Below, piece by piece: positions 9,067 to 37,617 of a stretch of DNA of 37,617 bases. A program made the position numbers and the translations under genes. The stretch is taken from IMG/VR virus record IMGVR_UViG_3300028840_004841, positions 1-37,617 of that record, one strand, 5' to 3'. Below the pieces are notes generated by a model. The model was not told where the DNA came from, did not search any database, and saw only the letters and a list, made by a program, of their open reading frames with translations. Every line of letters begins with the position of its first letter. Positions within the stretch are counted from its first letter, which is position 1. Source of the stretch: a virus.

Positions 9067-10074
9067 TTATGCCTCGGCGGTGAGAAAGCCGGTGCAGAGA
9101 TTGTTGACGACGGCCTGCACGAGGTAGCCGACACCGGAGTCGTACAACAGGTTGCTCTTGACGTTGTACAAGACCATGTTGTCCTCGGACCCCATGGGCA
9201 GCGCCTTGTATTTCAGCTTCGGCAATGTGAGCACGAGCTTGTGGTAGTACGTGGATTCGATCAATGCGCCCTGGGCGGTGATGATCGCCTTGAGTGCGTC
9301 GTTCGCCTCGAGATGGTCCAGCTCCGTGGTGTTCGCATCGAGGAGAAGATCGAACTCGAGCGTTCCCGTGCGCCTGCCGTGCTCGAGTCGGCCGCGCACC
9401 TGGCCGCTGCCCGGGTAGTAGCCGTCGTCCTCGAGGGGATGGTTGTCCCACTCGAAGCTCCACTTCTTCAGCCTGTCCGAATCGTCCACCTCGGACCCGG
9501 ACGCTCCTATCTCGAACGTGACGCCGTGTGTGCGCAGGAATGAGTCGGCGCTGATGGTCGGGAACGAGAGCGCCGATGATGCCACGTGCCCGGAGCCGAT
9601 CAGGTCGAACTCGAGCTTGAGCCGCTGTTTGCCTTCGCCCGAAATTTTGAATCGGGCGACGGCGATGTCGCGGACCTTCCGCTTGATGCCCGCAGTCGGC
9701 TGCACGGCGATTGTCGTGACAGGCAGTTGCTTGGATGCCGTGATCGGGATGTTCGTGTGGCTGTAGGCCGTCGTGTCGAGCAGCGCGGGCGTGCTGTTGC
9801 CGAGGCCGAACGCGGTCACCCACCCGAGCATCCACGTGCCGCAATCGTAGCCGAGGCTCATGCGGCAATCTTTCATCTCCTGGTTCTGGTCGGTGGGCCA
9901 TTCGCCGATGCCGACCTGGTCATCGTTCGGCACGAACCCGGGATCCTCCTCGAGGAACGCGACTCCATTCATCGGGTAGAACGTGTCGAGGCTGCCGTCG
10001 ACGAGCGCCGTGCCGTAGGCCGATTGTTTTTCCGGCCCCACGGCGATTTTCATGTCATAATCTCTTTCGCTCAT
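9067..10074 (-). CDS. Major tail tube protein
   Basis: A 335-aa protein starting MSERDYDMKIAVGPEKQSAYGT. The order (DUF1834, this gene, chaperone pair, tape measure) fixes it as the tail tube subunit. The sequence is strand-rich with many Gly, Ser and Thr, and has a pattern such as KRKVRDIAVARFKISGEGKQR and LEFDLIGSGHV found in tail tube proteins of non-contractile Mu-like phages. At 335 residues it is longer than the lambda tube protein, so an extra surface domain is likely. A ribosome-binding site (AGGAGGTTCGC) precedes the start. No sheath gene accompanies it, unlike Mu itself. Confidence 0.8.
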   Translation of the reverse strand: MSERDYDMKIAVGPEKQSAYGTALVDGSLDTFYPMNGVAFLEEDPGFVPNDDQVGIGEWPTDQNQEMKDCRMSLGYDCGTWMLGWVTAFGLGNSTPALLDTTAYSHTNIPITASKQLPVTTIAVQPTAGIKRKVRDIAVARFKISGEGKQRLKLEFDLIGSGHVASSALSFPTISADSFLRTHGVTFEIGASGSEVDDSDRLKKWSFEWDNHPLEDDGYYPGSGQVRGRLEHGRRTGTLEFDLLLDANTTELDHLEANDALKAIITAQGALIESTYYHKLVLTLPKLKYKALPMGSEDNMVLYNVKSNLLYDSGVGYLVQAVVNNLCTGFLTAEA

Positions 10075-11933: not shown

Positions 11934-12893
11934 TTACGTCGTGATGTTGTCCATCAGATAGCCGACGTCGGTGCAGACGATCTTCTCGGTTGTGTCGTGA
12001 CGCACGCGGATGACGTTGCCGCGAATTTTCTCGTCGCGATATTCCTCGACGATTGTCGTGTCCTCGCCGCTCCCGCTTTCCTCGGTCCACACGAAGGTGC
12101 GGCCGAGCGCGGGCTCCTCCAGGTCGCCGCTGGTCGCAACACGGCAGAGCATCGCATACTCGCTGCTCCAGATGCCCGACATGCTCGCGTCCTGGCCGGC
12201 CTTCGCCGCGTCGTAGTAAGCATCGCCCACGAGCACCTTGTCGAGCGCGAAATAGCTGGCGAGCATCTGCGCGGAAATCTCGCCGCGCTGTACTGCCGGG
12301 CTCACGTATTTCAACCTGTCCACCACGTCATCGCAGAGGCCGAGGTCTAGGAACGTCGAGTACGCGATGACGAGCGCGTTCGGCGTGATCCCCGTCGCGT
12401 CCTTGATCGCCTTTTTCCCGGTCGTCACGTCGCTGAGCGGCACTGCGTTCGTGGCGTCATCCCATTCATGCGTGATCGACACGGCAGTCCACGTGCTCGT
12501 GTTGAAGACGGCGTCGGCGATCCGCTTTTCCTGCGCGCGCAGGATGATGCTCATTGCGCGCCGCGTGGATATGACCTCGGCGTCGAAATACCGGGCGTAG
12601 AGCTTCGCCTGCTTGTCGTCGACGGGCTCTTCCCAGCCATGCTCGACACAGGCGAAATTGTCGAGGTCGAATCGCCAGTCCCCACGGTTGTATCCGCTCT
12701 TGGCTGCGCGCCGGGTCTCGGGCATTTTCATCATCGATTCACGCGTGATGATCGGATATTCCCCGGTCGCTATCTCGCTGCGGAACGCCGGCAGCACCTG
12801 GAAGCCGATGAACCCGCTCTTGCCGGCATCGCGCATCACCTCCGACGCGATGGCCCCGAGGTCGGGCCGTTGAGTTGTGCTTGAGGGTATCAT
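11934..12893 (-). CDS. Major capsid protein
   Basis: A 319-aa protein. The C-terminal half has the familiar coat-protein pattern: GITPNALVIAYSTFLDL, then DRLKYVSPAVQRGEISAQM, the segment YFALDKVLVGDAYYDAAKAG, and the loop with WSSEYAMLC. These match the HK97-fold coat proteins of Mu-like siphophages. The N terminus (GFIGFQVLPAFRSEIATGEYPII) corresponds to the N-arm and first strand of such proteins. The gene follows the decoration protein and the protease/scaffold gene, the normal order. The start has GGAGGATCGAGA just upstream, good for a heavily made protein. Confidence 0.9.
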   Translation of the reverse strand: MIPSSTTQRPDLGAIASEVMRDAGKSGFIGFQVLPAFRSEIATGEYPIITRESMMKMPETRRAAKSGYNRGDWRFDLDNFACVEHGWEEPVDDKQAKLYARYFDAEVISTRRAMSIILRAQEKRIADAVFNTSTWTAVSITHEWDDATNAVPLSDVTTGKKAIKDATGITPNALVIAYSTFLDLGLCDDVVDRLKYVSPAVQRGEISAQMLASYFALDKVLVGDAYYDAAKAGQDASMSGIWSSEYAMLCRVATSGDLEEPALGRTFVWTEESGSGEDTTIVEEYRDEKIRGNVIRVRHDTTEKIVCTDVGYLMDNITT

Positions 12894-15146: not shown

Positions 15147-17387
15147 TTATGCTGCGAGTCCCAGTTGTTCCATCGGCGTGCCCTCGAAACCGTCGTCGGG
15201 CTCAAAGCCCGGATACTCGCTCGGCGCGACCTTCTTCTTCGCCGCCTCGTATTTGGAAATGGCGCGCACCCGGCACCGGCACCGGTACCCGTTGGGCGTC
15301 CACCAGGTGTCCCACACGGGATCGTCGCGATGCGCGATGAACCGGTGCATCGCCTTGTGCGACGGGCGCACCGACTCGTCGCCGGCAGTGAGGTACTGGT
15401 AGTACGGAAAATAGTCGGCGACGTCGGGATCGTGCATGACCTCCCAGTTGCCGGCGCTGTAGGCCGTGTGGAGGTTCGTCGTGAACACATTCTCGATGTG
15501 ATGCTTCGAGAGCCTCGATATCCCTTCGGAATCGAACACCGCGTTCACGCGCTTGCGGAACTCGCCGACCGTGATCCCCGATTCAAGCGCATCCTCGATG
15601 CCCGCCTTCGCGAGCGCGAGAATCCGCGCGTTCTCGATCTCCGCGATCCGGAACCCGTACCGCTCGAGCTTTTCGTCCAGCTCCGTGATCTCGGCAGCGG
15701 TAACCGGAATCAATTTCTTGAAGAACTCGATTGCCTTCTTGGCCGGCATCGGCCCCCAGGTGATTTCCGCAAAGGGGGCAGCCCCGATATTCCGGATTTG
15801 CCCAATCCTGAAATTCTCCAACTGCCCCCTTTGAGCGGACATCTTATTGATCTCCTCAACGACGTCCTCATGCTCGGCATAGAAATGCACCCAGGCCATG
15901 AGGTCGGCCACCAGGAGCGTGTCGCGCAGCAGCTCCGCGAGCGGCTTCGGGTCGAGTTCTATTTCTGCGATGAGGTTCAGCATGTCAGCGGTCACCTGGG
16001 CGTCGTCTTTTTTTTTTGCGACCGGCTTCATCGCCGCGTCGGTCAAGTTCTCGTAGATGTCGCCTGCGCGTTTCTGCGCGGCCGCATTCAGTTGCTCGGT
16101 GTCTTTCAGGTACCGGTCCTGCGCATCGGCGAAGTGCGCCTTCCGATCTGCCGAGAATGCCGGCGGCATCGCGGGACCGCTCGTTTTGATCTCGAGGAGC
16201 GTCTGCTCGTCGGTCGGTCGAGGAATGCCGTAGGTATCGTAGAAATAGTCCTCGGCGACCGGCACGGTCAGTTCCTTGAACAGAATCCGATCCCGCTTGG
16301 CGAGGCCCTCCAGGTCGCCGGGTTCCTCGAAATGGATTTTAAATTCCGGATAGTAGAGGACCCCGGTGTAATTGAAATCGACAAGCCACGTGATGAGCTG
16401 ATTGAGGACCGGCATGAGCGATTTGGCGTCGGCCTCGATGTAGTCCTGGCGGACGCCCTGGTGGACGCGCCCGAGCGCCTGCGTGCCGTGCTGACCCTCG
16501 GACGCCGTGAGCGTCTGCCCCAGGATCGCCTTCGAGATCTGCGCGTCCATGTAGTTCGCGAATGCCTGATATGTGTCCGTCGAGCTTTTGCGCTGCTGCT
16601 CGAGCATCTCGACGAGCATGTTCTCCGGGATGACAATGCCGGTCTCGGTCTGAATCTTTTCGATGATCCCGAGCAGCTTATCCTGGTCTTCCTTCGACGT
16701 GCCCGGCGGATATTTCCCGACGGTGGGCGGCGTGCCGAATTTCTCCGCGAACATCGCCCAGAACTTCACGCCGTTCTTTTTGAACCAATGGAACCAATAG
16801 CATTTCTTGAGCACCGGCTCGCCATAGGGATTCTCATATTTCGGCGCGAACGTGTGCACGAGGAATTTGAACGGCGGAACCTCGATGCCGTCGAGCATCG
16901 CGGCGCGCGTCTTCAGGCGCGGCCGGTTGTCGGTGTCGAACACGAACCGGCGCGGATCGCGACTCTTCAGCTCCTCGATCACGATCATCCCGTCGCGCAC
17001 GCCCCACATGATCTCGGAGAACGAGACGCCCTTCGGGATCGCATCGAGCGACTCCTTCAGATCGCGGTCGAAATACGGGATGTTCCAGATCACGCTCTGG
17101 ACGAATTCGCAGATCTCCTGATCACGCGGCTCGTCGGAGCCGGGCAGTATCTCCCAGGGCTTGGAAATCACGCCGAGCTTGCGCGTCTGCACGCACGAAA
17201 ACAGGTGTGGGTCCTTGTCCTCCATCTCGTCGTAGAGTTGGTGCGCTTTGCCCGCCGATTCCTTCTGCAGGATGTAGTCCGGATTCTGGAGCGTCTTCCC
17301 GAGCCACGTCCGGAAAATGTCGTTTTCGACCCCGGCGATCTCGTTGATCTCCGGTTTCGGGGTTTTCTCTGTCTGATTTTCAGCCAC
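15147..17387 (-). CDS. Portal protein (DUF935) fused to MuF head-morphogenesis domain
   Basis: A 746-aa protein combining two usually separate Mu proteins. Residues about 1-440 are a DUF935 portal (Mu gp29-like): FRTWLGKTLQNPDYIL, SCVQTRKLGVISKPWEI, KKNGVKFWAMFAEKFGTPP and SKAILGQTLTASEG. Residues about 440-620 are a helical link with a basic KPVAKKKDD. Residues about 630-735 are the MuF-like domain: ENVFTTNLHTAYSAGNWE, the strongly conserved DESVRPSHKAMH, and WWTPNGYRCRCRVRA. The portal is the DNA channel, and MuF acts in head maturation or is injected. The fusion removes the separate F gene; no stop or slip site lies between the parts. Confidence 0.9.
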   Translation of the reverse strand: MAENQTEKTPKPEINEIAGVENDIFRTWLGKTLQNPDYILQKESAGKAHQLYDEMEDKDPHLFSCVQTRKLGVISKPWEILPGSDEPRDQEICEFVQSVIWNIPYFDRDLKESLDAIPKGVSFSEIMWGVRDGMIVIEELKSRDPRRFVFDTDNRPRLKTRAAMLDGIEVPPFKFLVHTFAPKYENPYGEPVLKKCYWFHWFKKNGVKFWAMFAEKFGTPPTVGKYPPGTSKEDQDKLLGIIEKIQTETGIVIPENMLVEMLEQQRKSSTDTYQAFANYMDAQISKAILGQTLTASEGQHGTQALGRVHQGVRQDYIEADAKSLMPVLNQLITWLVDFNYTGVLYYPEFKIHFEEPGDLEGLAKRDRILFKELTVPVAEDYFYDTYGIPRPTDEQTLLEIKTSGPAMPPAFSADRKAHFADAQDRYLKDTEQLNAAAQKRAGDIYENLTDAAMKPVAKKKDDAQVTADMLNLIAEIELDPKPLAELLRDTLLVADLMAWVHFYAEHEDVVEEINKMSAQRGQLENFRIGQIRNIGAAPFAEITWGPMPAKKAIEFFKKLIPVTAAEITELDEKLERYGFRIAEIENARILALAKAGIEDALESGITVGEFRKRVNAVFDSEGISRLSKHHIENVFTTNLHTAYSAGNWEVMHDPDVADYFPYYQYLTAGDESVRPSHKAMHRFIAHRDDPVWDTWWTPNGYRCRCRVRAISKYEAAKKKVAPSEYPGFEPDDGFEGTPMEQLGLAA

Positions 17388-28328: not shown

Positions 28329-30077
28329 TCAAGCACTGGCTGCCACCTCTCCCTCAGCCGCTTTTTCTAATCCGTGCAAATCCGTCTGCCTGTGCGTTGC
28401 ACGCAGACAGGTGCAAATCCGTGGTTGCAGTTTCTTCTCTTCCCGCTCGATCTGTTCCTCCGCCACCATCTCACCCCACGCGCCGTTGAGCCGCTCGCTC
28501 TCTTCTTTCTCGAGCTTGCGCCCCAGCCGCTCCTGCAATTCCCTTTTCGCTTCCAGCCGCGACATGCTCGGGCCGGCGACTTTGGACTCTGGACCTTGGA
28601 CTTTGGACTCGAATTCGATCCCCGCTTTCGTCATGAACCGCATATTCTTGAGCAGGTCCTCGTTCGCAAACGCTTTCACCTCGCCCGGCAGCTCGATCTC
28701 ATCCAGCCGATCGATCCGCTGTTTCCATTCCGGTGCCGCCATCGCGGGCGCCGAGCCGGGCGCCCTCATCCGGACCGCAAAACTCGGATACCCGTATTTG
28801 TCTTTGATGACGCGGGCCGGATAAAACATCTGGCCGTCCTTCGTCACGATCTTCACGCGGTTTTCGTCGAACGGACAATACATGACGGTCACGCGCTGTC
28901 CCTTCAGGGCCTGCACCGCCGGGTCGGAATAATTCTCGGTGTCGCCGAGGAACGAATACGGCACACCCTTGAATCGCACGCCGAGTTGCGAGCTGACCGT
29001 CGCCTCGTATTCGCGATAGGCGAGGCTGAGAAAATGCTCGAGGCTCGACGGCGGCAGCCGCAGGTGTTCACGCTCGACCCAGGATGAAAATGCAACCGAG
29101 CGCGGCATGCCGTATCGGCTGTGTTCGTTGATACCATTGAGTTCAATGAGGATCGGCTGTATCTTGCGGTTCAAATCTTCGACCGTGCTCGCGGGCTGAA
29201 AGCGCAGCAGCGATTCGATCGCGCGCTCGACATACCACATCAGCGTCTCCACGCTGCCCTTCGCCTGCGGCTGCCCGCGCTTGTGTGTGCGAAATTCGAC
29301 GCCCAAGTTCTCGAACAGGTTCTCGCAGAATGAGTTCTTGAGTCCGCTGCCTTTGTCGGCCAGGAGAATCTCCGGCATGCCCTTCAGGGGATACTTCGAC
29401 TCGTCCGCCTTCGGCATCCAGCCGCGCCACAACACGGGCAGCACGTTCTCCATCGCCTCCGCGCCCGTGAAATACTCCACCCAAAATGCGTTCGTAATCA
29501 CCTCGGTGTAGATGGCGCGCAGAATCGGCGGGCCTTTGCCGCGCTTGTTCTTCGTCCAGTAGATGGTGGGGTCCTGCGTGCCCACCGTCTCATCCGGCTT
29601 CAAATAATATTGCGCGCAGACCGACACGTCGAACTCGCCGAACTGATTCACGTAATCCGGCCGGCGCGGAATGTGCGGAGGCTCCGTCTGCGGAGGCCTC
29701 CGGGGATAATGCTCGCGCAGGAAACGGTTCACCATGTCCACGGTCAGCTCGCCCTCTTCCCAAAAACCCGACTGCACGCCGACGCGGATGGCGCGCTCGG
29801 TCGTGAGCGTCGGCGAGTACTTTCGTGTCGCGGTCGCATGGATGAGCTTCGCCGCGACCTCCAGTTTCTCGGCGGGCGGCGGCTTCGGCGGCGGCCCCCC
29901 GCAACCGTTCCGGCCCGAGTCGTATCCGCCGGCGCGCGCCCAGCGATACACCGTCGTTCGCCCCGCCTTGTACCGCGCCATGTATTCCTCGATGATCGCC
30001 CGCTTCCCCAGGCGCGACGCCGCCTTCAGCGTCTTCGCCAACTCCTCACACGTCCTCGAATCCATATCCACGTCCAC
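28329..30077 (-). CDS. Mu A-type DDE transposase
   Basis: A 582-aa transposase of the Mu A/retroviral integrase type, which joins phage ends to target DNA for integration and replication. N terminus: helix-turn-helix (GKRAIIEEYMARYKAGRTTV). The catalytic core has D150 (FGEFDVSVCAQYYL), D241 (EILLADKGSGLKNSF) and E277 (QPQAKGSVETLMW). A following beta-barrel part includes RFKGVPYSFLG and RVTVMYCPFDENRV. The C-terminal region, where MuA contacts MuB, carries two repeat-derived stretches: ESKVQGPESKVAGPS and PRICTCLRATHRQTDLHG. GTG 30077 is taken as start; ATG 30065 is equally possible. Confidence 0.92.
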   Translation of the reverse strand: MDVDMDSRTCEELAKTLKAASRLGKRAIIEEYMARYKAGRTTVYRWARAGGYDSGRNGCGGPPPKPPPAEKLEVAAKLIHATATRKYSPTLTTERAIRVGVQSGFWEEGELTVDMVNRFLREHYPRRPPQTEPPHIPRRPDYVNQFGEFDVSVCAQYYLKPDETVGTQDPTIYWTKNKRGKGPPILRAIYTEVITNAFWVEYFTGAEAMENVLPVLWRGWMPKADESKYPLKGMPEILLADKGSGLKNSFCENLFENLGVEFRTHKRGQPQAKGSVETLMWYVERAIESLLRFQPASTVEDLNRKIQPILIELNGINEHSRYGMPRSVAFSSWVEREHLRLPPSSLEHFLSLAYREYEATVSSQLGVRFKGVPYSFLGDTENYSDPAVQALKGQRVTVMYCPFDENRVKIVTKDGQMFYPARVIKDKYGYPSFAVRMRAPGSAPAMAAPEWKQRIDRLDEIELPGEVKAFANEDLLKNMRFMTKAGIEFESKVQGPESKVAGPSMSRLEAKRELQERLGRKLEKEESERLNGAWGEMVAEEQIEREEKKLQPRICTCLRATHRQTDLHGLEKAAEGEVAASA

Positions 30078-33189: not shown

Positions 33190-33663
33190 CTATTCAAACA
33201 GCACTCCGACAACCTTATATAGATAGTCGAGGTCTTCATCTTTGGCGATGATGGGAGGTTTTGGGTCGGACGTGTTGACAGACTCGAGGATCCACTCCTT
33301 CCTTTCTTTATTATAGTAGACGCGCTTGAAGAGCGGCCCTTTCCCTTTGAAACCAACAGCGGCCAAGTCGGCATCATTGAGCGAACGCTCCCGGCTACAG
33401 AGCACGCATTGCCCTGCACGAGCAAGCGGGAGCATCGAATCTCCATGGACGAAGAGGCAGATTGTGTTCCTGTCTAGCTCGGCATGTTCGTAGTCTAATT
33501 GTCCCCACTGCGCCGGAAAACGAACAGCGTCATCGAACACGTTGACCATCCTGCAGAAATGCGAATAGCCGACCCCAACATCGTCGGCTATCTCCTCCCT
33601 GCTCTTGCGCCTGCATCCGCGCACACATGCTTCTAATACTTCCTCCAATGTCCCCCGCCTCAT
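33190..33663 (-). CDS. S24-family (CI/LexA-like) transcription regulator
   Basis: A 157-aa protein from ATG 33663, with AAGGAGATTGTTG upstream. Residues about 18-42 are a short helix-turn-helix (KSREEIADDVGVGYSHFCRM). The C-terminal domain is a signal-peptidase-type fold: FVHGDSMLPLARAGQCVLCS with Ser76, ending around FKRVYYNKERKEWILESVN with Lys113. The Ser-Lys pair is intact, so self-cleavage in response to RecA is possible. Unlike Mu c, it is encoded on the same strand as the early genes, second in the operon. Perhaps it is a delayed repressor or anti-repressor. Confidence 0.85.
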   Translation of the reverse strand: MRRGTLEEVLEACVRGCRRKSREEIADDVGVGYSHFCRMVNVFDDAVRFPAQWGQLDYEHAELDRNTICLFVHGDSMLPLARAGQCVLCSRERSLNDADLAAVGFKGKGPLFKRVYYNKERKEWILESVNTSDPKPPIIAKDEDLDYLYKVVGVLFE

Positions 33664-33784
33664 CAACAATCTCCTTTCCCCAATGCCTAACGCCGAACCC
33701 GCACGTCCGGCCCTCCCGTTAGAATTCCCCGCCACATTAGTAATTGACCCCTTCGCGCCTTTCATGGTAAAATTACCTCAGGTT

Positions 33785-33828: not shown

Positions 33829-34056
33829 TCAGGCAGCCTGGCTAGAGGAACCCCGAGGGAACAGCTCCACAACATCCGCCCCGAGACGGGCGGCCAGAAA
33901 CTTTTCCATGCGCCTGGAACGACGGACACCCATAATCAGCATGCTCATGAACGGCTGCGAGCACCGGCCAAACTTCTTCCGCGCCTCGGCCGCCAACTCC
34001 GACACCGTCAACTCCTGCTCGATCATCAAAATCCTAATCCGCTTCGTGTCCGCCAT
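33829..34056 (-). CDS. Small Ner-like DNA-binding regulator
   Basis: A 75-aa protein beginning MADTKRIRILMIEQELTVSE, then LAAEARKKFGRCSQPFMSML and MGVRRSRRMEKFLAARLGAD, a helix-turn-helix in which 'TVSELAAEA...sqpfmSmli.G.rrSrrm' corresponds to the XRE fold. It is the first gene of the early operon, divergent from the XRE repressor-like gene, exactly the place of ner in Mu. It probably turns down the early promoter after the first transcription. The ribosome-binding site is GGAG, close to the start. Confidence 0.75.
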   Translation of the reverse strand: MADTKRIRILMIEQELTVSELAAEARKKFGRCSQPFMSMLIMGVRRSRRMEKFLAARLGADVVELFPRGSSSQAA

Positions 34057-34142: not shown

Positions 34143-34168
34143 GTAAAATATTACGGGAATCCGTATAT
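34128..34168. promoter_or_regulatory. Candidate repressor operators around the early promoter
   Basis: TCCGTAA (34128-34134) and TTACGGGA (34151-34158) face each other and flank the -35 hexamer. A third site, TCCGTAT (34160-34166), touches the start of the divergent XRE gene. The common core TCCGTA suggests operator half-sites for the XRE or Ner-like protein. Binding would occlude the early promoter and could autoregulate the plus-strand gene. Confidence 0.6.
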
Positions 34169-34493
34169 GCAGAATCGAGAGGCTTTTAAGACAGCCCTGG
34201 GGCAGCGGTTACGCCGAATTCGCGGGGAGCGGACTCAACAAGAGTTCGCACAGCTTTTGGGAACTCTTCCGGTCCGGCTTTCGGAATATGAGAGGGGCGT
34301 GACGGAGCCACGCGCCGAATTTCTGAAGCGCTTCGCCCAAATCACCGGTTGCCGGTCCGATTGGCTTCTCACAGGAGACGGGGACCCGTATGAAAAAGTA
34401 GATTTGGTGGTTGAACAAAATGAGCGATATGGAGCTATCCAAATTCCGCTCGTCTCCAATATATCTGCAGATCCATTCGGAAGTACAGCCTGA
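34167..34493 (+). CDS. XRE-family repressor, candidate lysogeny repressor
   Basis: A 108-aa protein. Residues 7-65 are a clear HTH_3/XRE domain: LGQRLRRIRGERTQQEFAQL, LGTLPVRLSEYERGVTEPRA, then FLKRFAQITGCRSDWLLTGD. The 'DWLLTGDGDPY' ending is typical of phage repressors with a following C-terminal domain. It then ends soon after IPLVSNISADPF at a TGA, while the same frame stays open afterwards (see the 34506 gene). It diverges from the early operon across shared operators, the position of the Mu c repressor, but its orientation is toward the phage end. Start overlaps the operator region; no clear ribosome-binding site, so the message may be leaderless. Confidence 0.8.
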   Translation: MQNREAFKTALGQRLRRIRGERTQQEFAQLLGTLPVRLSEYERGVTEPRAEFLKRFAQITGCRSDWLLTGDGDPYEKVDLVVEQNERYGAIQIPLVSNISADPFGSTA

Positions 34494-35432: not shown

Positions 35433-35509
35433 GCGCCTTATATATAATGTAATGGGGATCCTCCCCATGGGGGGGGAAAAAATAATTTTGCGAAAACCCC
35501 GAAAAAGCC

Positions 35510-35538
35510 TTGACAAACTGCTAGCAGTGTGCTATAAT
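35510..35538 (+). promoter_or_regulatory. Consensus rightward promoter with palindromic operator
   Basis: TTGACA (35510-35515), 17 bases, TATAAT (35533-35538), all perfect. In the spacer CTGCTAGCAG (35519-35528) is a 10-bp palindrome, fitting an operator for the ribbon-helix-helix protein encoded next. Upstream, 35452-35468 has a 7-bp hairpin (ATGGGGA/TCCCCAT) and a G-run. Confidence 0.85.
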
Positions 35539-35561
35539 GATAGTAGATTGGAGGTGCGAGG

Positions 35562-35813
35562 ATGAGACAGCAGCTAAATGTGAGGGTCCCCGAGGAGTTG
35601 GTCGACGCGCTCCGTGGGCGCGCCGCCGAGGAGGACCGCAGTCTCAATAATTTCGTCGTCCGCATCCTCCGCCAGGCGCTCGATGGCGAGCAGCCCAGAA
35701 CCACAAACCGACCCGACGCTCGACTCGGCACCGAGGCCGTGGAGAGGCGCGGGGAGCGAAAGGATCAGAAAAATGAAACCCTCCACGAAACGACTCATCA
35801 GTGCAGTCCATGA
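35562..35813 (+). CDS. Ribbon-helix-helix (Arc/CopG-like) regulator
   Basis: An 83-aa protein. Residues 1-42 are a ribbon-helix-helix DNA-binding unit: MRQQLNVRVPEELVDALRGR, then AAEEDRSLNNFVVRILRQAL, with the first strand QLNVRVP inserting into DNA and the conserved turn before SLNNFV. The rest is hydrophilic, Arg/Glu/Thr-rich, likely disordered. It is first gene behind a promoter with a palindrome in its spacer, so autorepression is likely, as in toxin-antitoxin and accessory operons. Its 3' end overlaps the 345-aa gene by 41 bases in another frame. Confidence 0.8.
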   Translation: MRQQLNVRVPEELVDALRGRAAEEDRSLNNFVVRILRQALDGEQPRTTNRPDARLGTEAVERRGERKDQKNETLHETTHQCSP

Positions 35814-36810
35814 TTACGCACATCTCGATGATGCCGTGCAGCGCTGCGGCATCGATGTCCGTACCACGTATGTATCCGTGTGGTACCGCCCGGAACTCCC
35901 CATAGATCACCTGCACCTCCAGGGCAGTGAGCCTGGCACATGGGATGATGCCGACCCGCTACGAGACGAGTGGCTCCAACTGGAGCAGGACATCCTCCAG
36001 CTCCAGCTAGGCGAGTGCGTGTCTGCCCGCGTAGACACGCGGAATATCTCCCGGCAGCGGGATGCTACTCTCCGGGCGATCCGGATGTGTGAGACGGCGG
36101 ACCGCATGCTCGCACGCACGCGAAAATCGCGAGTCCGAAAAATCGCGACGCTCCAACGCCGGCAGTCCGAGATTATCCGGGAGATCCGCAGGCTCAATGG
36201 CGCGGTAGTCGTCGAGCGCCGGCGCGCCGCGAAAGCGCACCGCGAGGCCGAAAAAGAGGCTCTCGCAGCGGGCCGGTTTTGGGAATGCTCCGAACAGACG
36301 CTGAAAAATTATTTTTCTGTGCCATTCCGAAAACGCAAACTGGTCGATGTCTCCGAGCGCCATCGGGCAGCGCTATTTTTAGATCTCGATTACGAGGGGT
36401 ACGGCGTCGGCCTCCAACCCTCCGGAGTTGCCCACCTCTGTGGTATCGACGATAATGGCGAGGAGTGGGGGTTCCGCCTTTTGGTGTATCGATCTTACGA
36501 TGTTACCGTCGTGGATGCGATGATGACATGTTGGGGCGTGCGCCGCGATATCATTGAGCGCGCGACGCGGCAAGGGGAAATATTAATATGGAGTGAGAAT
36601 ATCCCTGATGATGTGCGGCTCGAATCTGCCGACGACGAGCACGATATTGCTCCGTCGCATACCGTGCGCTCGGAAACACTCCAGATTAATGGAGAGTATT
36701 TTTACGCCACGACTCCGATAATTGTGGAGCATCCGACGCATGCCGCGATCTGGCTCCAGCCCGGATCGTATCGGTATGCCTCGCACGACATGTCGGCAGA
36801 TATAGACTAG
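35773..36810 (+). CDS. 345-aa protein of unknown function in accessory region
   Basis: From ATG 35773 (MKPSTKRLISAVHDYAHLDD), preceded by AAAGGATC. The open frame extends upstream into the RHH gene, so that part is ignored. Residues about 70-195 are a long Arg-rich helical or coiled region (SRQRDATLRAIRMCETADRM, KIATLQRRQSEIIREIRRLN). The last 130 residues are a strand-rich domain (FLDLDYEGYGVGLQPSGVAH, GEEWGFRLLVYRSYDVTVVD, QINGEYFYATTPIIVEHPTH) ending in an acidic tail. No motif of a known enzyme is visible. It sits between an RHH regulator and a 161-aa unknown. Function cannot be assigned. Confidence 0.7.
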   Translation: MKPSTKRLISAVHDYAHLDDAVQRCGIDVRTTYVSVWYRPELPIDHLHLQGSEPGTWDDADPLRDEWLQLEQDILQLQLGECVSARVDTRNISRQRDATLRAIRMCETADRMLARTRKSRVRKIATLQRRQSEIIREIRRLNGAVVVERRRAAKAHREAEKEALAAGRFWECSEQTLKNYFSVPFRKRKLVDVSERHRAALFLDLDYEGYGVGLQPSGVAHLCGIDDNGEEWGFRLLVYRSYDVTVVDAMMTCWGVRRDIIERATRQGEILIWSENIPDDVRLESADDEHDIAPSHTVRSETLQINGEYFYATTPIIVEHPTHAAIWLQPGSYRYASHDMSADID

Positions 36811-36819
36811 GAGGTGTCG

Positions 36820-36888
36820 AGCCTGGCCCTGCGACATCCTGCCGAAAATCGGACAGGGGATGAAGCGCCACCGTCGCAGGGGCAGGCT
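36820..36888 (+). ncRNA. Long RNA hairpin between the two unknown accessory genes
   Basis: AGCCTGGCCCTGCGAC (36820-36835) and GTCGCAGGGGCAGGCT (36873-36888) are complementary in 15 of 16 positions. The 37-base loop has its own weaker hairpin (ATCCTGCCGA against TCGGACAGG). The structure stands right after the stop of the 345-aa gene and 22 bases before the next ATG. It could be a regulatory or processing structure, or the RNA part of the system. A GTG-start 30-codon frame overlaps it but is weak. Confidence 0.45.
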
Positions 36889-36910
36889 CATAATTACAGG
36901 AGGTGAGACG

Positions 36911-37396
36911 ATGAGGCAATTACTGCGACTATATCAGGAGACGCTGGCGGAAACGCTGCGGCGGTTTGGCGACGGTGAACTGAAGATGATGATCGATGTC
37001 AGCAACAGCACGTACCTGGCATCGGGTATCATGGGCCAGCAGATGATCCCTAATATAGAGGATGCGTTTGCGCTCGATCCCGGGAGGTACGAGCAGAAAT
37101 GGGGGATCGAGTCTGAGCCGATGCTGACCACATTGCGGGCGCTCGATATGTGGCAGCTCGCATGCCTGGAGATCTGGGCAAACGAATTGTGGTACGGCGG
37201 CGGTACGGGCGACGTGGACATCGAGGGCTATCTCCGGCCGCCGGCGATCTCGGAGGAGTTGGCGCGCGCGGGGAATCTGCTGCAGGAGGCTGTTGAGCAG
37301 ATGGGGAAATCGAGGGGCGCGTTTAAATCGGCGACCATCGCCCAGGCGCGCACGGCCACCGAACAGGCGCTCAGCATTCTCCGGGCGCATCTATAA
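36911..37396 (+). CDS. 161-aa protein of unknown function in accessory region
   Basis: Start at ATG 36911 (MRQLLRLYQETLAETLRRFG), preceded by an excellent AGGAGGTGAGACG. The protein is mostly helical: DGELKMMIDVSNSTYLASGI, GQQMIPNIEDAFALDPGRYE, then LTTLRALDMWQLACLEIWAN, and a C-terminal helix with GAFKSATIAQARTATEQALS. No membrane segment or catalytic motif is visible. The strong ribosome-binding site shows that it is a real gene. It ends 20 bases before an intrinsic terminator and is the last gene before the phage end. Function unknown. Confidence 0.75.
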   Translation: MRQLLRLYQETLAETLRRFGDGELKMMIDVSNSTYLASGIMGQQMIPNIEDAFALDPGRYEQKWGIESEPMLTTLRALDMWQLACLEIWANELWYGGGTGDVDIEGYLRPPAISEELARAGNLLQEAVEQMGKSRGAFKSATIAQARTATEQALSILRAHL

Positions 37397-37415
37397 TATG
37401 ATGTAAGGGGAGTGA

Positions 37416-37450
37416 GCCCCCGGGTGGCGTGGCCACCCGGGGGCGTTTTT
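37416..37450 (+). terminator. Strong intrinsic terminator of the accessory unit
   Basis: GCCCCCGGGTGGC and GCCACCCGGGGGC make a perfect 13-bp stem with a three-base loop GTG. GTTTTT follows directly. It ends plus-strand transcription just before the right phage end and may shield transposase sites from read-through. Confidence 0.92.
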
Positions 37451-37488: not shown

Positions 37489-37617
37489 CATATATTACCC
37501 GCGCTGCGCACATATTGGAAACCCCCAGTCCAAAAACAGCCAAATTTGTCACCCACGAATGCCCCAGTTCACGCCTTCAGTCCCATTCTCACCCCCCCCC
37601 AGTCCCACTCGTGAACA
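37489..37617 (-). repeat. Right prophage end with transposase-binding motifs
   Basis: On the minus strand the end reads TGTTCACGAGTGGGACTGG. It has a further ATGGGACTG followed by AAGGCGTGAAC, similar to the left end's second unit, and deeper in GTGCGCAGCGCGGGTAATAT with ATG (37511 down to 37489), the same inner element as at 217-240. The last base of the window is probably the last base of the phage. Confidence 0.75.

Follow-up and report, generated by a model that had tools for sequence, protein, structure and literature searches.

An RHH regulator gene and the genes for two proteins of 345 and 161 residues, here called P2 and P3, form a unit with its own promoter and terminator beside one end of the phage in virus record IMGVR_UViG_3300028840_004841, a single record of 37617 bases that was analysed in full (the window). 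The P2-P3 pair recurs in nine or more further phages that are unrelated, and is therefore a real mobile phage module; we assign the two proteins to two new phage protein families. We interpret the unit as a mobile accessory operon (a moron) carried by temperate phages, which would be expressed in the lysogen, be controlled at several steps and encode P2 and P3 as a joint effector, and we give this reading a probability of about 0.4. It is ordinary in kind, as an accessory cassette, and new in its components. The initial annotation had also described a self-contained accessory unit, and the promoter, the terminator and the recurrence of the two genes together in other phages bear this out.

We identify the window as a transposable phage of the Mu/B3 type (150-37617) preceded by 149 bp of host DNA resembling that of Candidatus Abyssobacteria. 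As in Mu/B3-like phages, a MuA-type transposase (28329-30077, minus strand; phrog_310, 7.9e-36), end repeats at a 22-bp spacing and host DNA at one end were found. The minus strand also encodes a portal/minor head fusion (15147-17387), which is 31-34% identical to the portals of Mushuvirus and of the B3-like Pseudomonas phage JBD67, as well as a major head protein, a protease and a tape measure. Both phage ends carry an inverted terminal sequence with the 22-bp spaced GTGGGACTSG boxes and a common GTGCGCAGCG...GTAATATATG block, and the phage therefore spans positions 150 (TGTTG...) to 37617 (...GAACA), the repressor-side end with its transposase-type repeats occupying 37489-37617. The peptide encoded by bases 1-149 shares 77% identity with a SURF_17 protein (Candidatus Abyssobacteria) and 73% with one from a second MAG of the same phylum, and we therefore take these bases to be host DNA. 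Through this flanking DNA, the phage is linked to Candidatus Abyssobacteria, and its host would be an uncultured deep-subsurface bacterium. SURF_17 has another MuA prophage, with a transposase 30% identical to that of the window (G001:C27:46734-48275); relatives of P2 or P3 were not found in the three Abyssobacteria genomes searched.

A gene for an HTH repressor-like protein lies upstream of the unit and on the same strand (34167-34493, plus). Given the phage ends and the position of this gene, the unit sits in the repressor-side arm, between the HTH gene and the phage end. Thus, its initial placement beside the prophage end is confirmed, as is its orientation opposite to the lytic genes, which are on the minus strand while the unit is on the plus strand. 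The other phage end carries a gene for a D12-class adenine DNA methyltransferase (268-1032, minus); Mu has its DNA-modification gene, mom, at the corresponding end.

Direct searches with P2 and P3 of Pfam, PHROGs, NCBIfam, PADLOC, PDB sequences, phages and viral_contigs, and with P2 also of plasmids and genome_contigs, returned nothing. This turned out to be a limit of sensitivity, since relatives were later found stepwise. The phage fragment L004, which had been retrieved with the portal (fetched loci carry L numbers), matched P3 weakly (pairwise E 3e-9), and this match and a CLEIWA motif were used to build a DNA pattern that retrieved 23 viral stretches, of which 22 encode true P3 relatives. 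In five of these loci (L115, L122, L123, L130 and L133) a P2 relative lies directly upstream. A profile built from four P2 proteins returned 21 loci, which reduce to 15 distinct contigs in addition to the window once near-identical loci are removed; L122 and L140 are one contig, and L133 adds a partial copy. P3 is the next gene downstream of P2 in nine of the 15 (L123, L138, L139, L140, L141, L143, L154, L155 and L156), with one small extra ORF intervening in L143. The initial annotation had suggested a search for the pair and its hairpin in other prophages and had considered that the pair might be absent from any other genome. The pair does recur, in these nine contigs, but not every carrier has the RHH gene or the exact hairpin.

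The nearest relative, L155, has an RHH gene, a P2 of 346 residues (45% identical to that of the window), a hairpin and a P3 of 161 residues; the P2 of L156 is 44% identical. An RHH gene is found upstream in L155 and directly before P2 in L147 and L152, and is absent from the remaining loci examined, that is, from most relatives. Nor is the P2-P3 pair obligatory, as some P3 relatives have other neighbours, and in L137 (3554-4189) and L146 (7311-7946) P2 is followed not by P3 but by a protein of about 211 residues with a HELAH metalloprotease-like motif; the L137 protein has no Pfam, PHROG or PADLOC match. Related 341-aa proteins of an unknown family precede P3 and an RNA motif as an alternative partner in L121 (3201-4226, minus) and L126 (11633-12658).

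Several carrier contigs encode a tyrosine integrase and are therefore from temperate phages. MuA was not found in five carriers tested with the window's own transposase, most of the records being fragments (a Pfam MuA search of the carriers ran without a positive control). Together, the integrases and the MuA result indicate that the module crosses phage types. With neighbouring genes named by eye, the cassettes are antisense to adjacent terminase or portal genes in L122/L140, L123, L133, L142, L147, L149/L152 and L154, and lying opposite terminase genes is what expression in the lysogen would predict. Counting against such expression, the pair in L115/L130/L143 lies between terminase and portal genes and on their strand, which would fit lytic expression. 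In an alternative reading, the cassette assists the phage cycle, through DNA modification, packaging or host take-over, and travels with a neighbourhood of ParB, radical SAM, ASCH or terminase genes. Genes of these kinds (ParB-like, radical SAM, ASCH-like or terminase, again by eye) do lie near P2 or P3 in L137, L139, L154, L155 and L130, but the cassettes have their own promoters and are antisense in many carriers, and the unit of the window stands alone at the phage end remote from the packaging genes; we regard an auxiliary role in the phage cycle as unlikely.

As initially described, the unit begins with a perfect sigma70 promoter, TTGACA-N17-TATAAT (12/12; 35510-35538, plus), whose spacer contains the perfect 12-bp palindrome ACTGCTAGCAGT (35517-35528). 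The window holds two promoters of perfect consensus where 0.002 would be expected from its composition, and the score of the unit's own promoter was reached in none of 100 shuffles. The other perfect promoter (34142-34114, minus) points into the lytic arm, with a 75-aa ORF (33829-34056) and an S24 peptidase-like gene (33190-33765) downstream. The first gene of the unit (35562-35813, plus) encodes a protein of 83 residues whose identification as an RHH (Arc/FitA-like) regulator is supported by the Pfam models Arc (3.9e-7) and FitA-like_RHH (4.1e-7), and its reading frame overlaps that of P2 by 41 nt. The predicted intrinsic terminator was found at 37416-37444 (plus), with a 13-bp stem, a 3-nt loop and a T run.

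Promoters matching the consensus at 11-12 of 12 positions lie upstream of the first gene of the cassette in eight of the 17 loci tested (the window, L123, L140, L143, L147, L152, L154 and L155), and 0-3 of 100 shuffles per locus scored as high; about half of the cassettes are without a strong promoter. The match is perfect in the window, L123 and L155, and the latter two account for two of only five perfect consensus promoters in all 1.34 Mb of fetched loci. RHH-linked cassettes have an inverted repeat between the -35 and -10 elements, ACTGCTAGCAGT in the window, ATCTTGCTAATCAAGAT in L147/L152 and GACATTATAGCTGATGTC in L155. This layout supports autoregulation by the RHH proteins, subject to the reservation that the L155 promoter is located between RHH and P2, and ACTGCTAGCAGT is probably the RHH operator of the window. 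In the mechanism that we propose, sigma70 polymerase would start at 35510, and the RHH protein would bind the palindrome between -35 and -10 and limit its own operon, such that transcription in the lysogen would be constitutive but RHH-limited. Translation of P2 would be coupled to that of the RHH gene it overlaps, and the terminator would insulate the unit from the phage end.

The same arrangement raises the possibility of an addiction operon of the toxin-antitoxin kind, in which RHH would act as antitoxin and autorepressor, P2 as toxin and P3 as an accessory, stabilising the prophage. The RHH gene precedes and overlaps P2 in the window and stands directly before it in L147/L152, the promoters of RHH-linked cassettes contain inverted repeats, and the RHH proteins of the cassettes match the Pfam FitA-like, HicB and CopG antitoxin models. 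P2, however, is a protein of 345-430 residues with no match to toxin families, P3 has no match to antitoxin models, and most P2 loci have no RHH gene, which together make an addiction operon quite unlikely.

A hairpin lies between P2 and P3 (36819-36889, plus). It had been described as a near-perfect hairpin of 69 nt; the structure is real (-50.7 kcal/mol, z -4.4, none of 200 shuffles as stable), but it is a stem of two 17-nt arms (36819-36835 and 36873-36889; 16 pairs and one mismatch) that close a 37-nt region which folds further. No T run follows, and the hairpin is therefore not an intrinsic terminator. Stable structures occupy the same intergenic position in L123, L140 and L154, and weaker ones in L155, L156 and L141, with different sequences; no stable structure was found between P2 and P3 in L138. 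The position of the hairpin is thus conserved and its sequence is not. A distinct RNA motif, R1, which combines an outer stem with two hairpins, the first being GGCAGGAGAUGCC, is found just upstream of P3 in L121, L122/L140, L123 and L126; in L139 and L141 it precedes P2, and L124, L126 and L127 have it at other sites. Its nine copies (L121:3124-3195, minus; L123:5537-5607; L124:4656-4726; L126:10230-10303 and 12665-12737; L127:4808-4879; L139:5896-5964; L140:7145-7214; L141:5887-5962) covary strongly, with changes on both sides in 14 of 22 pairs, 94% of cells paired and none of 500 shuffles as good. Overall, R1 precedes P2, P3, ParB-like and other phage genes. The window hairpin was considered as a further copy of R1 and rejected, as it gave no match to the covariance model with filters off; an Rfam search of both RNAs gave chance-level matches at most. 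On our best reading, the position between P2 and P3 serves expression control through different RNAs, and the hairpin of the window would separate or tune the expression of P3. L126 also has a type II hammerhead ribozyme (9951-10018), within the phage region that holds P3 and two R1 copies.

P2 (35773-36810, plus) comprises an N-terminal region, a long coiled helix, a core with FW...LKxYFxxPF and LCGIDDNGxxWG, and a C-terminal domain. A single-sequence AlphaFold model places the Arg-rich long helix at about residues 90-165 (36040-36267, plus) and strands after residue 200; its overall pLDDT is 38, values of 70-84 being confined to residues 121-150 and the rest unreliable. P3 (36911-37396, plus) was modelled in the same way as all helical, with a pLDDT of 43. 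The initial picture of a P2 with an Arg-rich coiled middle and a beta-rich end, and of a helical P3, can thus be kept as a coarse description at low confidence, and both models were too poor for a fold search. P2 homologs are 345-430 residues long and 29-45% identical to the P2 of the window (E 1e-33 to 1e-96). Nearly invariant in the family are FW...K.YF..PF, DVS..RAAL, LCGIDDNG..WG, RQG, H296, H320 and H323, and also a C-terminal PG.Y. P3 belongs to a phage family with the signature FSxGELxLMIDVFNxT...KW...ACLEIWAxGFW. In the window, L155 (161 residues) and L156 (166 residues), P3 is without the N-terminal segment of about 38 residues of its other relatives and has a common C-terminal extension, GAFKS..IA.A. 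The idea that this segment is an RHH domain fused to P3 found no support (hhalign probability 2, no Pfam match), and a match of P3 to a Streptomyces STM4015 frame was judged to be due to chance.

The C-terminal domain of P2 (residues 262-345; 36556-36807, plus) resembles a family of small proteins that have the motifs GHxH and HEEH. Searching for this family with a DNA pattern gave one phage member, L020 (phrog_27831), which aligns to P2 residues 266-334 (BLASTP E 2e-7), and comparison of the P2 and small-family profiles gave an hhalign E of 3.7e-13 and a probability of 97.9. We conclude from these alignments that the C-terminus of P2 is a divergent version of a small, as yet uncharacterised protein, RQGDVLI...GHxHR...HEEHxxIxLPxGxYRV, that is usually encoded beside DUF6745 genes. 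The initial view that the large proteins have no recognised motif therefore holds for database annotation but not for this domain. P2 and the small proteins have in common a QGD...HxxH...LPxGxYR domain, with HxxH and PGxYR kept, as are H296, H320 and H323 of P2; the small proteins have an intact GHxH, whereas P2 has lost the second histidine and has SHTV there. Unlike the small proteins, P2 has the domain fused to a coiled-coil protein and no adjacent DUF6745 gene. Its three histidines may bind metal. We also considered that the middle of P2 might correspond to the C-terminus of DUF6745; this was plausible by eye and was ruled out by profile comparison.

All seven annotated plasmid members of the small family adjoin a DUF6745 gene, six of them also with STM4011-STM4015-type genes nearby, and DUF6745 is likewise the neighbour in most of the 53 viral loci. 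The searchable literature gives no function for the small family and no mention of DUF6745. The two-gene unit of the small and DUF6745 proteins (L053-L060, L061-L113) is common in phages and bacterial plasmids and often adjoins STM4011-STM4015 radical SAM clusters. The domain homology and these plasmid neighbourhoods hint at a lysogenic conversion that has nothing to do with phages, such as a role in metabolism or stress, but the middle of P2 does not match DUF6745, and neither DUF6745, in a profile search, nor STM4011-4015-type genes were detected in P2 loci, which renders such a function improbable.

The mobile accessory operon remains our preferred reading, with P2, which has a coiled coil, an LCGIDDNG core and a three-histidine domain, and P3 most likely acting together as an effector pair. 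As to its purpose, mobile, antisense units of the lysogen type in phages often protect the lysogen against other phages, and in a B3-like phage the repressor strand carries exclusion genes; for these reasons we infer that protection of the lysogen against other phages, by superinfection exclusion or defence, is likelier than any other single purpose. None of the PADLOC models matches the proteins of the window or their relatives, and the proteins of the unit have no matches to defence, toxin or exclusion families. A more specific proposal, that RHH, P2, a structured RNA and P3 constitute an undescribed anti-phage or prophage-maintenance system that temperate phages spread, with a metal site in P2, a two-component effector completed by P3 and RNAs that set the ratio of the two, is possible but doubtful. 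In either case, two families without a Pfam, PHROG, NCBIfam or PADLOC entry make up a recurrent phage gene pair with an expression unit that can be cloned, and the promoter-operator-RHH layout and the conserved residues (LCGIDDNG, the three histidines and ACLEIWA) make its function directly testable. Moreover, a domain so far tied to DUF6745 and STM4011-4015 loci is now extended to phage accessory genes.

The unit resembles RHH toxin-antitoxin operons of the FitAB and HicAB type in that a small RHH gene precedes a larger one and overlaps its frame and that the promoter contains, as a sequence feature, a predicted operator; unlike these operons, it has no recognisable toxin family or domain, and RHH is not conserved across the module. 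In the B3-like phage Fc02, olg1 and gene 10 are on the repressor strand and are transcribed in the lysogen, and one of them gives superinfection exclusion (PMC9936078). Fc02 and the window phage are both transposable and of the same broad type, but the Fc02 genes are unrelated to the unit, differ in size and lie upstream of the repressor, whereas the unit lies downstream of it, towards the phage end. Closest in kind are the morons, the general class of lysogenic accessory loci of temperate phages (PMC7067206). The unit differs from these in that its protein families have no described function, and in being known from sequence, with its expression in the lysogen predicted. Like morons, it has its own promoter (12/12) and its own terminator (a 13-bp stem and a T run), is antisense to the lytic genes and has a patchy distribution across unrelated phages, 15 distinct contigs besides the window.
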